Assembly (NCBI GenBank): GCA_019044685.2
Contig: JAGTXX020000012.1
Span: 62,001-126,000, forward strand
Origin: Nannochloris sp. 'desiccata'
Lineage: Eukaryota; Chlorophyta; Trebouxiophyceae; Chlorellales; Chlorellaceae
DNA length: 64,000 bases
Direction: 5' to 3'
Under the pieces are notes generated by a model, which had not been told where the DNA came from, did not search any database, and saw only the letters and a program-made list of their open reading frames with translations. The position numbers and the translations under genes were made by a program. Below are positions 14,668 to 51,875 of the stretch, in pieces. The first letter of the stretch is position 1. Each line of letters opens with the position of its first letter.

Positions 14668-15196
14668 AAGGAAAGGGCCGCCGGAAAAGACAACAGGTGC
14701 AGTTTCCTGTTGCTGTGGTTTTGCTTGATTAAGATTGAACTGCTAGTATAACTTAAGTAATTCCTATTTCATCTAGGAACATGTGTTTAAGATCAGTATT
14801 TGCAAGGCAGAGCACGTCCAAAATAAAATGGACTGTTTTTTTTCAATTTGAAGACAGGAAAAGAGAATCAATCGATCGGGCCTTCCCAAATCAATCTTCC
14901 CTTACACCAGCATCGTTATAGCAATGCAAGCTTGAAAAAGGTCCTTACATCTCGCAGTTACGGAGGCAATTTGCCGAGGTTAAATTTTAGAATTTCTTCA
15001 ACGTGGATCGAAATGGCACATTGGGAAAGCGGCTGCTGTAGGTCGTCAAATTTCGCATTATTTACTATAATCATATCCTTGCATCACAGGCCTCGAATTT
15101 AGCCAAATTAATGCCTAAAAATGAGAAAAAAATTCGGCAAGAGCGTCGAAAATTCTTGTTTTTAAAATATAAATAGTGCAAATTCTTAGATTCCAT
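14668..15196. other. Intergenic stretch upstream of the 5S gene
   Basis: No gene recognised. Sequence is AT-rich. The minus-strand open frame that crosses 15071-15451 overlaps the 5S rRNA gene and is a by-product of it. Confidence 0.5.
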
Positions 15197-15312
15197 GATT
15201 CGTTCATACCATCGTGAATACATCAGTTCCCGTCTGATCACTGAAATTAAGCACGATTGGGCAGCAACAGTAGTACCAACAGAGATGGGGTGCGAAGTCG
15301 CTGTGACGAATC
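15197..15312 (+). rRNA. 5S ribosomal RNA (single dispersed gene)
   Basis: About 116 nt. The ends pair perfectly as helix I: GATTCGT at 15197-15203 with ACGAATC at 15306-15312. In between are the conserved 5S blocks CATACC, GTCTGATCACTGAAATTAAGC (the internal A-box region of the gene), AGTAGTACC and GAGATGGGGTG (C-box region). CAGCAAC and GTCGCTG can form helix V with one mismatch. A TTTT run follows at 15313-15316, and a longer T run lies further on, fitting RNA polymerase III termination. Only one copy is present, between protein genes, rather than a tandem array. Exact mature ends are inferred from the pairing. Confidence 0.85.
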
Positions 15313-15476
15313 TTTTGATCCTCTTTCTCTTTTTGCACTTCTCTCGCGCAAAATATGACCAACTGCAACTGCACAATTGATTTGCGTGCCCTTCGCCAAC
15401 TTTAGGTAAGCTCTTCAACTTTTTCCCAAAATTAAATAAGAGAGATAACACAGAAAAACAAAAAGTAAATATCTAT

Positions 15477-20550: not shown

Positions 20551-20559
20551 GTTCTAATT

Positions 20560-20646
20560 AGCAATTGGGGAGACCCGCGTAGGTTCGAGTCCTATCAGCG
20601 TCGGTTAATGACGCTGTCGCATAGTGGCTATTGCGATTGCCTAGAA
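20560..20646 (+). tRNA. Circularly permuted tRNA-Ser(AGA) gene
   Basis: The 3' half of the tRNA lies upstream of the 5' half. The 3' half is 20560-20603. It holds A38, anticodon-stem strand GCAAT (20561-20565), a 13-nt serine-type variable arm, T-stem GTAGG, T-loop TTCGAGT, CCTAT, acceptor strand CAGCGTC and discriminator G. Six bases (GTTAAT) follow. The 5' half is 20610-20646. It holds acceptor strand GACGCTG (7 of 7 pairs), TC, a D-arm with AGTGG, G26, anticodon-stem strand ATTGC (5 of 5 pairs) and loop CTAGAA with anticodon AGA. Joining after 20646 to 20560 gives loop CTAGAAA, as in ordinary tRNA-Ser(AGA), and an 81-nt body. The leader GTTCTA (20551-20556) can pair with TAGAAC (20642-20647) across the processing site. 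RNA processing through a circular intermediate is inferred. Confidence 0.9.
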
Positions 20647-20672
20647 CTCTATTAATTATTAAATATCGTTAA

Positions 20673-20679
20673 TTTTTTT
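20673..20679 (+). terminator. T7 terminator of the permuted tRNA gene
   Basis: Seven consecutive T on the coding strand, 26 bases after the 5' half of the tRNA. This is the usual RNA polymerase III stop signal. Confidence 0.7.
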
Positions 20680-36794: not shown

Positions 36795-37567
36795 CCAGGT
36801 AAGTCACCCGATTCAATCTTCTAATGATTAGAAGCCGCTTCCAGGCTATCGAGAATCAGGTAAGTCACCCGATTAGAATAGCCGCTTCCAGGCTATCGAG
36901 AACAGCCATTTTAGAAACTCGGAAAAGCCTTTAGGCCAGGAACAGCGGTTTTACGCACAGTTTTTAAAATCATTCATTCATTTAGACATGTTACATCTAA
37001 TTTAATGGCCTCAAACTGCCAGAGTTGGCCAACTTGCGCTGTTGGTTGAATGGTGGGATTTGAATTGGGCGAGGACAGGGCTCCAGAGAGGAGGGCTGCA
37101 AGGCCTCATCAAGCACCTCCAGGTGCTCGAAATGGCACCAAAAGGTCCTACGGCGTGTCTCAGGGCAGCCAGACAAAGCCCAAGACGCAGAAGACCGCTG
37201 TCAACAGAGATTATTTGGAAAGAATTACGAGGGAGGCGAAAGATTTCGATGATAGACGTGACGCAAATATAGATGAATACTTGATACAGTTCGCGGAGGC
37301 AGCACAGCACACGGTTACCATAAATAAATCGCACGCAGAAGATCATCAATCGAGAGTTGAGCAAGCCTTCGAAAATGCTTGCAGGGACCACCCTTGTTGC
37401 CTTTGTGGTGAAGGAGAAAATTGTTTATTATCGGGCGGGCATAATGTAGTTATTGTCGTGGATTTTGACCATCACTGCGCTTTAAAGATTCCAGTTAACC
37501 AATGCCGCCAAAGCAAAATGAGAGTCACTGTTCACCCCTACGCAGTGGACTGTGTTCCTACTACTGC
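36795..37567 (+). repeat. Left arm of a large inverted repeat
   Basis: From about 36840 to 37567 this arm is the reverse complement of 37776 to about 38510, with no difference seen where I compared them, including the full coding overlap. The outer end carries a shorter, variant version of the 47-bp unit found on the right (one full unit at 36852-36898 plus a variant at 36795-36851). Arm length is about 0.73 kb. Confidence 0.9.
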
Positions 37568-37715
37568 AACTGAGCACTGTCAAACATGGATAAGGATATC
37601 TGTAGTGCATTTTTTCCGGGATCTGCATAAGAACAATGGCCTATCTGCTAATGGTAAGCTTCTTACCCTAAATAACCCTTCCGTAATCCAACGCCCCCAC
37701 CTTGTTGGAGATTAA
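37050..37715 (+). mobile_element. CxC-type cysteine-cluster ORF of a KDZ-like DNA transposon, fragment
   Basis: An ATG frame of 221 aa. A basic Gln/Arg/Pro-rich start (RAPERRAARPHQAPPG) is followed by a helical segment, a CCLCGEGENC cluster, VVDFDHHCALKIPVNQC, and then the run VDCVPTTATEHCQTWIRIS leading to FFRDLHKNNGLSANG. This order is what I know from the cysteine-cluster proteins N-terminal to KDZ (Kyakuja-Dileera-Zisupton) transposases: paired Cys, a Cys-x-P-x-T-x step, an aromatic run, then GLSA. No KDZ catalytic domain is present, so this is a truncated or non-autonomous piece. Residues 1-172 lie in the left repeat arm. The last 49 residues come from the unique spacer. Confidence 0.6.
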
Positions 37716-37775
37716 CTTTTTATTTGCTGATTATTTTAAAATGACTGAACTTTACTTTACATTACCCTATCCTAA
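37568..37775. other. Unique spacer of the inverted repeat (208 bp)
   Basis: Separates the two arms. It codes for the last part of the left-hand KDZ-like frame and its stop, then non-coding AT-rich sequence. Confidence 0.8.
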
Positions 37776-38293
37776 GCAGTAGTAGGAACACAGTCCACTG
37801 CGTAGGGGTGAACAGTGACTCTCATTTTGCTTTGGCGGCATTGGTTAACTGGAATCTTTAAAGCGCAGTGATGGTCAAAATCCACGACAATAACTACATT
37901 ATGCCCGCCCGATAATAAACAATTTTCTCCTTCACCACAAAGGCAACAAGGGTGGTCCCTGCAAGCATTTTCGAAGGCTTGCTCAACTCTCGATTGATGA
38001 TCTTCTGCGTGCGATTTATTTATGGTAACCGTGTGCTGTGCTGCCTCCGCGAACTGTATCAAGTATTCATCTATATTTGCGTCACGTCTATCATCGAAAT
38101 CTTTCGCCTCCCTCGTAATTCTTTCCAAATAATCTCTGTTGACAGCGGTCTTCTGCGTCTTGGGCTTTGTCTGGCTGCCCTGAGACACGCCGTAGGACCT
38201 TTTGGTGCCATTTCGAGCACCTGGAGGTGCTTGATGAGGCCTTGCAGCCCTCCTCTCTGGAGCCCTGTCCTCGCCCAATTCAAATCCCACCAT
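37772..38293 (-). mobile_element. Second, truncated copy of the KDZ-like ORF
   Basis: On the minus strand the same frame reads 173 aa, identical to residues 1-173 of the left copy. It stops right after the arm ends because the spacer does not continue the gene. It is therefore 3'-truncated by the inversion junction. Confidence 0.65.
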
Positions 38294-49358: not shown

Positions 49359-51362
49359 TTATGCATCACCATCGTCGTCATCATCATCTTCATCATCTTC
49401 TACCTCTACGTCTTCATCTTCTTCTTCCTCATCTTCATCATCAATAATACTCGTTATTGGAGCACTGCCACTAGCACCAGCAGTACCATCCCCAGCTCCA
49501 CTGTGAACGTTCCCTGCTGCCTCTTCCAAACCGGCACCTTGGCGTTTCCCGCCGCCGCCAGCTTCCGTTGCTGCTGCTGCTAACTTGCTGCTCTGGCCTT
49601 TTTCTAAATATGTAGCTAATTCAGACATTAATTCAGGGGGGATAATGCCGATACCTGCACCATTACCACCACCAGCAGCAGCAGCAGCAGCAGCAGCAGT
49701 ACCAGTAGTATTACCAAAGTTTGCAGCTTGAGCAGCAGCTGCTTCCCACAATGCCCCAAATCTCGCAGCTACCTTGGTTTTAATTCCTTCCCACGCCGTT
49801 TGAGTAAGCCATCCACTCCCATCACTCACCCCTGCCGCAACATTACTCGTCTCTCCTAATACATAGCGTATTTCGCTGTCATCTATATCGCATAACTGTA
49901 GCTGTAAAGTTTGAGTGGATTGAACTCCACTGAAGGAGCAAAGAGCGGTGTAACTGGGAGCGACTGGAGGAAGCCCAGGTGCCACAGGAAGACCACCACC
50001 GGCATTGCCGAGGCTGGCCATTGTACTAACAGCAGTGGTGTTCCTAGTGCTACTATGGAGCTGTAGTTGTTGCAGTTGATTAGCAACTCTACTTTTATGG
50101 GTCAGCACTTTCTTCCACCATTCAACAGGGAGCGAATATTCCAATACTTGATACTGTCGTGCAGCAGGCTCAGCGCGGGGGTCATATCCACGAAGCACCC
50201 ATGTGCCTTTCCAAGGACCATTTTTGAAACGGTAGCATAATTTGGACAGAAGCTCCTGTTGAGAACGTGTTGCAGGGAAAGAAGTGAATGTAGTATTAGA
50301 AGCAGAAGCAGAGGAGGTGTTTGCCCCAGCTACACCCCCACCACTGCCTCCAATTTCTATGGTACCTAGTGCAGCTCCGAGAGCTGATTCTAGATATACC
50401 GGTCTTCTATTGAACACCATTTCTAATCGGGACACCAACGCTTCAATGCCAGGGGCTACTGAGGCTCTTTGCCCCTGTCCAATACCGCTGCCACCCCCAC
50501 CTTGTCCATTTAGAGCCGCTGTATCACCACCAACAAGACCAGGTGCTGCTCCACTTGCTCCTCCTAGTGTCTTTGTATCTGCACGAGGCACTTCCGGTGC
50601 AAAATAATCCACCCATGTGATCCCCTTGCCTCGTTTTGGCTTTCTTCCCAACACATCTAGTCCATGCTCAGCTGCTTTATACTGTTTGAATGCGTAATCA
50701 ACTGCAGGTTCAACTGCAAACATAGATGGAGTACATAATAACGGTTGTTTGGGTAAGAATTCAGGATCGTCTTCGACTCGATCTGCTCGTGCGACCCATT
50801 GTACTTCAATAGGCCGCCTGTCCTGGCCAGCATATTGAAAATCAGCTGGAGCGGAAAAGGCATATGTTTTATCTGCTACAGCGACTATCTCTGCTTTAAC
50901 ACCGTCCCTATCGTGTTCTTCGTTAATATTATCTTCATCAGAGTCTTCGTCAAGATTGTCTGTTTGCATTTTTTCAAGACCGTCTTTTCCGTAAGGATGA
51001 AAGGATCGTGTTAATTTCAAGACGAGAACTGTCGTGGATTTTGCATCGTCGCTGATAAGAGGGTGACACGATGGGTCTCCAGGTCGCAATCTTAGTTGTA
51101 AAGTCTTTGGGTGATTTTGGCGCTGAGATGCTAGACCATCAAGGCCGCCAAAGGTTGCAAGTGCCCGATCTTCATTTTTAATATACCCTGGGAATTCCAC
51201 AATAAAATTGCATGCACCAGGCTGATCGGGGAGAGGGACAGTAAGAGAATGGGATTGAGGAACAAGCTCGGCAGTGTCTTCAGCACCGGTGGTTGGGGTG
51301 TCGGCAGCCAGAGCGGTAGGCTGAGAGGCATCCCCTTTTGGCAAAGGCTTGCGGGGAGGCAT
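49359..51362 (-). CDS. TFIIIC subunit 5 (GTF3C5/Tfc1-like)
   Basis: Subunit of the factor that recruits RNA polymerase III to tRNA genes; this one contacts the A box. Single exon, 667 aa. The N-terminal barrel-forming block FIVEFPGYIKNEDRALATFGGLDGL, then LQLRLRPGDPSCHPLISDDAKSTTVLVLKL, is diagnostic for the family. The central DNA-binding part has FNRRPVYLESALGAALG..., LLSKLCYRFKNGPWKGTWVLRGYDPRAEPAARQYQVLEY. The C-terminus is a long acidic tail (Glu/Asp runs), as in yeast Tfc1. Gly/Ala-rich inserts enlarge the middle. The start codon is 513 bp from the divergent small gene. Confidence 0.9.
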   Translation of the reverse strand: MPPRKPLPKGDASQPTALAADTPTTGAEDTAELVPQSHSLTVPLPDQPGACNFIVEFPGYIKNEDRALATFGGLDGLASQRQNHPKTLQLRLRPGDPSCHPLISDDAKSTTVLVLKLTRSFHPYGKDGLEKMQTDNLDEDSDEDNINEEHDRDGVKAEIVAVADKTYAFSAPADFQYAGQDRRPIEVQWVARADRVEDDPEFLPKQPLLCTPSMFAVEPAVDYAFKQYKAAEHGLDVLGRKPKRGKGITWVDYFAPEVPRADTKTLGGASGAAPGLVGGDTAALNGQGGGGSGIGQGQRASVAPGIEALVSRLEMVFNRRPVYLESALGAALGTIEIGGSGGGVAGANTSSASASNTTFTSFPATRSQQELLSKLCYRFKNGPWKGTWVLRGYDPRAEPAARQYQVLEYSLPVEWWKKVLTHKSRVANQLQQLQLHSSTRNTTAVSTMASLGNAGGGLPVAPGLPPVAPSYTALCSFSGVQSTQTLQLQLCDIDDSEIRYVLGETSNVAAGVSDGSGWLTQTAWEGIKTKVAARFGALWEAAAAQAANFGNTTGTAAAAAAAAGGGNGAGIGIIPPELMSELATYLEKGQSSKLAAAATEAGGGGKRQGAGLEEAAGNVHSGAGDGTAGASGSAPITSIIDDEDEEEEDEDVEVEDDEDDDDDDGDA

Positions 51363-51875
51363 GTTTAGGAGATAATTTATGAAATTAGTAAATTGCTAAT
51401 TTATCATATGCTTATTCAGTAGGCAAGAAACCTTAAATTGCGTGAAAAAGTTCAAGTCTCGATGAATTTTGATCTGATTTGTGACATGATTTACAATGTT
51501 GTATCCATAGGAGCGCATAGATGTATGTGCAAGCTTTTGTACAACTAGTGAATATTGGAATTCTTATTTGAATTGGCAGAGAATTTCCATAAGCCAATCT
51601 TATTCGCTATACGCTCCAAGTTTGAAATGCAATTTTGCTCTCAAAGGAGCAACATTTTGATCATTCTTATAATTTCATACTTTTATTAGACCTTGCAATA
51701 CGTCACCCATCAAGACGAATTTCAATTCCCTGAGCCTTAATTGCCATATTTTAACTGATCAAGCATTTCAAACAGGGAAGCTTTAGTTATAGGTTCAGGC
51801 TGTATATCGCTTCTTTACGTCTCTGAAACCTTGCACTATACGTAAAAAATCTATACAGCACCCAGGAAACCAGCA
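51363..51875. promoter_or_regulatory. Divergent upstream region
   Basis: Shared by TFIIIC subunit 5 (minus) and the 70-aa membrane-anchor gene (plus). AT-rich, no clear motif. Confidence 0.4.

Follow-up and report, generated by a model that had tools for sequence, protein, structure and literature searches.

Genetic organization of the tRNA-Ser(AGA) locus

The stretch of DNA analysed here, referred to as the window, comprises 64,000 nucleotides (64 kb) of contig JAGTXX020000012.1 of the green alga Nannochloris sp. 'desiccata' and contains a gene for a serine transfer RNA (tRNA), tRNA-Ser(AGA), whose two halves lie on one strand in exchanged order. The 3' half (44 bases) is located upstream of the 5' half (37 bases), with six bases between them (Table 1). 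When the halves are swapped and joined, the resulting 81 nucleotides form a cloverleaf with the standard tRNA positions T8, G18G19, T33 and T54T55C56. The acceptor stem closes with seven of seven pairs, the anticodon stem with five of five around the loop CTAGAAA, the T stem with five of five, including one G-T pair, and the D stem with three of three, the fourth position being an unpaired T-T; the variable arm is of the serine type. The CCA end is not encoded, as GTTAAT directly follows G73. In the minimum-energy fold of the unswapped strand the leader sequence GTTCTA is paired with TAGAAC, no run of four T separates the halves, and a run of seven T follows the 5' half. Accordingly, the preliminary description of the locus as a circularly permuted gene, with both halves, a junction joining 20646 to 20560, the leader pairing and the T run, was borne out in each of these parts by the sequence, by ARAGORN analysis of the swapped halves and by the fold.

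Table 1. Coordinates of the permuted tRNA-Ser(AGA) locus and of further features of the window
Feature	Position	Strand	Remarks
Leader	20551..20559	+	GTTCTA (20551-20556) pairs with TAGAAC (20642-20647); leader -3 to -6 pairs with loop positions 33-35
3' half of tRNA-Ser(AGA), positions 38 to 73	20560..20603	+	variable arm, T arm with B box, acceptor 3' strand, G73; sequence, ARAGORN, descriptor script
Intervening sequence GTTAAT	20604..20609	+	separates the future 3' and 5' ends; sequence, descriptor script
5' half of tRNA-Ser(AGA), positions 1 to 37	20610..20646	+	acceptor 5' strand, D arm with A box, anticodon AGA; sequence, ARAGORN, covariance model, descriptor script
Trailer	20647..20672	+	removal expected at the 37/38 junction; sequence
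Seven T	20673..20679	+	likely RNA polymerase III terminator; sequence
5S rRNA gene	15196-15314		77.4 bits
Open reading frame	37050-37715	+	facing the following open reading frame
Open reading frame	37772-38293	-	facing the preceding open reading frame
Open reading frame with Tau95 domains	49359-51395	-	TFIIIC

Detection of the permuted gene in swapped order

The tRNA was found by neither ARAGORN nor Rfam in the unswapped window, and the sub-threshold Rfam hits there (mascRNA, 16.2 bits; tRNA, 13.5 bits) lay far below the gathering scores. With the halves swapped, ARAGORN reported tRNA-Ser(AGA) in two of three constructs, the construct with long flanks not being called. An ordinary intron-bearing tRNA was rejected, since ARAGORN with introns allowed returned nothing at the locus and each half was found once, in exchanged order.

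The preliminary description had proposed scoring the locus with a covariance model in swapped order. Such a model of tRNAs permuted at positions 37/38, designated R1, was built from 28 script-made tRNA-like sequences and six ordinary-order tRNAs of the genome, with the tRNA-Ser(AGA) of the window left out of the building set. The gene scored strongly: R1 yielded one match in the window, at 20576-20646 (39.2 bits, E-value 7.9e-13), which was the sole match up to an E-value of 10. The match trims the start of this class II tRNA because R1 has no long variable arm; a separate class II alignment was made, from which no model was derived, and a first permuted alignment of nine tRNAs, in which the anticodon stems were misaligned, was not used. 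A descriptor script gave tRNA-Ser(AGA) a score of 42.4. Across the fetched loci, 40 of 269 B-box sites with their real flanks scored at least 38, a threshold that was chosen after the real scores had been seen and a count in which sites in overlapping fetches occur repeatedly. With B box and T stem kept, this score was reached at 0 of 269 sites with reversed flanks and in 0 of 5380 cases with shuffled flanks (20 shuffles each), the latter control yielding 5/5380 at a threshold of 36 and 18/5380 at 34.

A second, unpermuted tRNA-Ser(AGA), for which the preliminary description had suggested a search, was not found in the 21.55-Mb assembly of 18 contigs. When three mismatches were allowed, a probe of 30 bases from the 5' half matched a single place; the joined 81 bases returned only the two halves at this locus; and a Ser/Leu D-arm pattern matched five places (two Leu, three Ser), none of them a second Ser(AGA). 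These results bear on the explanation that the locus is a permuted pseudogene, which would be left over from the inner part of a tandemly duplicated ordinary tRNA gene with an intron and would have lost its expression. Damaged or divergent permuted copies do exist in the genome (L100 and the plus strand of L074), but every stem of tRNA-Ser(AGA) closes, and the searches gave no further tRNA-Ser(AGA) for reading the codons TCT and TCC. Moreover, the variable and T arms are similar to those of the ordinary tRNA-Ser(TGA) of the same genome, whereas the D stem differs on both strands (GCA/TGC versus TCC/GGA). A pseudogene origin is accordingly regarded as very unlikely.

Permuted tRNA genes in the genome

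Across the genome, at least nine tRNAs were detected by the Rfam tRNA model, which scored 63 of 825 candidates. Permuted genes were collected by genome searches with B-box patterns, fetching of the surroundings, application of R1 to 217 loci (L001 and L219-L232 lying outside its coverage) and, separately, the descriptor script. The pattern GGTTCRANYCC matched 141 places and its reversed control 187, which marks most of the former as chance matches; 140 of the 141 were examined, one of three repeat copies (C9) being omitted. AGTTCGANYCT matched 39 places, 38 of which lay whole within fetched stretches and one of which was cut by the end of L164, and of the 78 places matching YGTTCGANYCR only those 48 whose closing pair is TG..CA or CG..CG were purposely fetched. 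Three D-arm patterns with up to three mismatches matched 9, 5 and 14 places, of which the 9 and the 5 were covered.

With R1, scores above 30 bits were obtained for nine rows at seven places in 39 sources, 13 rows in 60, four in 38 and eight in 80, giving 32 places among the 217 loci; the next lower score was 21.1. The descriptor script yielded 30 loci with scores of at least 38 among 218 loci after removal of overlapping fetches, while three other listed loci remained below 30; two Val genes, in L162 and L221, escaped the script and were recognized by eye. The final list differs from that of R1 in that L063 (17.9 bits, 73-base spacer) and L221 (no R1 score) were kept, and L100 and the second Trp copy on the plus strand of L074, both above 30 bits, were dropped as damaged or divergent. 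The former (C11:1726669-1727269) is a Leu-like permuted unit in which the match of the 5' half ends after the D loop, and the latter (C8:551269-552869) is an extra permuted Trp copy with small differences.

The census thus comprises at least 32 permuted loci representing 30 distinct tRNAs (Table 2), and a gene form that had initially been called rare is not rare within this genome. ARAGORN called all 32 loci once they were swapped, with the anticodons assigned here, and none of them unswapped; Rfam, applied to 20 loci, gave no match at gathering score.

Table 2. Anticodons of the permuted tRNA genes
Amino acid	Anticodons
Ala	AGC, CGC, TGC
Arg	ACG, CCG, TCG, TCT, CCT
Asn	GTT
Cys	GCA
Glu	CTC
Gly	GCC (two loci), TCC
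Ile	AAT, TAT
Leu	AAG, CAA, TAA
Lys	CTT
Met	CAT
Phe	GAA
Ser	AGA, GCT
Thr	AGT, CGT, TGT
Trp	CCA (two loci)
Tyr	GTA
Val	AAC, CAC

Nine distinct nuclear-type tRNAs were found in ordinary order, namely Val TAC, Gln CTG, a different Met CAT, His GTG, Pro TGG, Pro AGG, Ser TGA, Ser CGA and Asp GTC, six of which carry an intron in the anticodon loop. The Ser(CGA) assignment with intron (L017/L184/L230) overrides the ARAGORN call Pro(cgg), given the Ser-type D arm. Permuted genes accordingly account for 30 of the 39 accepted distinct nuclear-type tRNAs, or about three quarters, a ratio among the tRNAs found in a census that is incomplete and that detects only 37/38 junctions and T arms matching the patterns. 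For 13 amino acids (Ala, Arg, Asn, Cys, Glu, Gly, Ile, Leu, Lys, Phe, Thr, Trp and Tyr) only permuted genes were accepted, and for Gln(TTG), Glu(TTC), Gly(CCC), Leu(CAG), Leu(TAG) and Lys(TTT) the census contained neither order. No accepted isoacceptor was seen in both orders, apart from an organelle-like pair of tRNA-Ser(GCT) genes (L005, L006), which are identical, have nearly identical flanks on different contigs and were not counted. Two doubtful ARAGORN calls were likewise left uncounted, Ile(aat) in L040, thought to be Pro-like, and Thr(tgt), which overlaps the permuted Trp unit in L074; if true, they would represent ordinary-order copies of isoacceptors listed as permuted. The swapped order is the usual form among the tRNA genes found here, and it is probably the default form of nuclear tRNA genes in this alga.

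Several further observations were made on individual genes. The permuted Val CAC gene (L162), which has C instead of T at position 33, and the permuted Val AAC gene (L221) lie about 2 kb apart on C12, near 299 and 301 kb. The intron of the ordinary tRNA-Asp gene (L010) contains a second B-box-like stretch, AGTTCGAGTCCT.

Splicing register, terminators and upstream sequences of the permuted genes

The exact pair in the splicing register is that of position 32 with leader position -3. If the leader and the trailer of permuted genes correspond to the two ends of an intron, loop positions 32-35 would be expected to pair with leader positions -3 to -6. Among the 30 distinct genes, 81 of 120 such cells were paired, compared with a mean of 59.0 for reshuffled leaders, which reached this value in 0 of 5000 trials; as the leaders were dealt out among the genes, the test indicates gene-specific complementarity beyond composition. 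Position 32 was paired with -3 in 22 of the 30 genes. Seven other, neighbouring registers were unexceptional in this test, and an eighth (start -9) showed a mild excess in the first version of the test (46 pairs versus 40.2, reached in 344 of 5000). These data include the Cys gene (L015) after its variable region had been re-cut from 12 to five bases, because the covariance model aligns it in this way and the shorter region brings it into the splicing register. The candidates for its 3' anticodon strand are TCAAC and TCTAC, seven bases apart, and the register fits the second. Before this change, 79 cells were paired against a mean of 58.8. According to a 2014 review, eukaryal splicing endonucleases rely on pairs between the anticodon loop and the intron (PMC3978253).

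A run of at least four T started within 20 bases past position 37 in 29 of the 30 distinct genes, whereas shuffled trailers gave a mean of 6.8 and a maximum of 13 in 500 trials. Inside the unit no such run was present in any of the 30 genes. This distribution is relevant to the alternative of a split tRNA, in which the half-tRNAs would be transcribed separately and joined in trans. Both halves are present and end at the splicing junction, which favours such a gene, but the six-base spacer on one strand and the lack of a run of four T between the halves in all of the 30 permuted genes argue against a split tRNA, a reading considered very unlikely.

Additionally, a repeated element of at least about 115 bases, with the B-box-like stretch GGTTCGAGTC on the opposite strand, was observed upstream of four of the 32 permuted loci (L015, L022, L037 and L063), always in one orientation and at a nearly constant distance of 116-136 bases from the permuted unit. 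Further copies occur in L007, L052, L084 and L125, and Rfam gave no match on L015, L022, L037 and L063. Possibly the element is mobile, with insertions upstream of genes transcribed by RNA polymerase III (Pol III).

Interpretation of the locus and proposed maturation pathway

With respect to these data, we are highly confident that the locus at 20560-20646 represents a functional nuclear gene for tRNA-Ser(AGA) in circularly permuted form, with its junction at 37/38, in a chlorellalean green alga. The sequence-based support consists of the complete serine tRNA obtained from swapped halves, the lack of another copy in the searches, the T run after the unit and the genome-wide leader-loop pairing.

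Several features of the locus weigh against this interpretation. The D arm is unusual (C9, GCA/TGC stem), and the leader forms only three of the four pairs of the splicing register. Around the junction a bulge-helix-bulge type motif can form in a relaxed version, whose 5' side is without a clean bulge, because the leader helix continues through positions 36 and 37 and the first trailer base. The run of seven T starts 27 bases downstream, farther than in the other 29 distinct permuted genes. TATA-like sequences were not enriched upstream of the permuted genes (6 of 30 versus a shuffled mean of 6.5), which leaves their promoter unexplained by a TATA-like signal, and both the expression of tRNA-Ser(AGA) and its RNA circle are what we infer. 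The fold energy of the locus is also weak (z -1.8; 8 of 200 shuffles fold equally well), which taken alone speaks for chance tRNA-like pieces or an assembly artefact. Against such an origin stand the R1 E-value (8e-13), the failure of all 5380 shuffles to reach a descriptor score of 38 and the 32 loci with gene-specific leader pairing, and we attach almost no weight to it.

For a functional permuted gene the following pathway is proposed by analogy with other algae. Pol III would synthesize a single transcript extending from the leader to the T run, the tRNA-splicing endonuclease would cut at the 37/38 junction and a ligase would join the ends to a circle. RNase P and tRNase Z may then take out the six-base spacer, and CCA would finally be added. 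One Pol III transcript per unit that is cut and joined at 37/38 fits with the register pairing and the T runs.

Comparison with known permuted tRNA genes

The preliminary description had named Cyanidioschyzon, prasinophyte green algae, a nucleomorph and some archaea as the lineages with such genes. These lineages are indeed known: of the 34 permuted tRNA genes in the 2014 review, C. merolae has 11, four prasinophytes together have 19, and a nucleomorph and an archaeon have two each (PMC3978253). The list is out of date, however, since permuted tRNA genes of the trebouxiophyte Auxenochlorella were reported in 2025 (PMC12636532). Ser(AGA) occurs twice among the 34, in Micromonas pusilla with a 64-base spacer and in the Bigelowiella natans nucleomorph with a 5-base spacer, and the pathway via a circle has been described for red and green algae (PMC3978253).

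The prasinophytes and the B. natans nucleomorph share with the present alga the 37/38 junction, found in nearly all of their permuted genes, and the permuted Ser(AGA) of M. pusilla and B. natans; they belong to another lineage than the Chlorellales considered here, and the table of the review gives them at most six genes per genome (PMC3978253), compared with the 32 loci found here. C. merolae likewise has swapped halves, a splicing junction and a T run after the unit, and the circle has been demonstrated experimentally in this species. In contrast, 11 of its 43 genes are permuted, their junctions lie at several sites and TATA-like elements precede most of them (PMC3978253), whereas the method applied here sees 37/38 only and no TATA-like enrichment was found in this alga. 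Auxenochlorella is the nearest named lineage with permuted tRNA genes, and there too the standard tRNA search gave an incomplete set (PMC12636532); its count may possibly be similar to the 32 loci found here.

The tRNA-Ser(AGA) gene is therefore real and of a kind already known, and the surprise to the specialist is the number of its permuted siblings. One genome nearly equals the 34 permuted genes of all species in the 2014 review, in which the richest genome had 11 (PMC3978253). Among the matches listed from the open full-text literature, subscription papers being outside this scope, no title or abstract reported a genome with mostly permuted tRNA genes. The data suggest that much of the protein synthesis in this alga depends on RNAs that are first made as circles. 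If most tRNA genes are permuted, it could be tested in one organism how Pol III starts with the B box before the A box, whether RNase P and tRNase Z open circles, and how the swapped order arose and spread and what function, if any, it has. The low yield of the Rfam tRNA model is also a warning that most tRNA genes of such algae may escape standard annotation.

Host lineage and other genes of the window

The ABC1 kinase encoded in the window has its best named relatives in Chlorella (75-76%) and Picochlorum (73%), and a 95% relative stems from metagenome data. In a tree of 20 proteins, the window sequence groups with Chlorella, Picochlorum and Auxenochlorella (support 100/100), adjoining Picochlorum (92/79), a placement for which one gene tree is thin evidence. 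The order of this lineage we take to be the Chlorellales.

The two open reading frames that face each other in inverted orientation (Table 1) share their first 173 residues and possibly represent a mobile element or a recent inverted duplication. The 5S rRNA gene stands alone among protein genes, and stand-alone 5S genes have been described for Auxenochlorella. Finally, the window contains an open reading frame with the Tau95 domains that belong to TFIIIC, the transcription factor of Pol III at tRNA genes.
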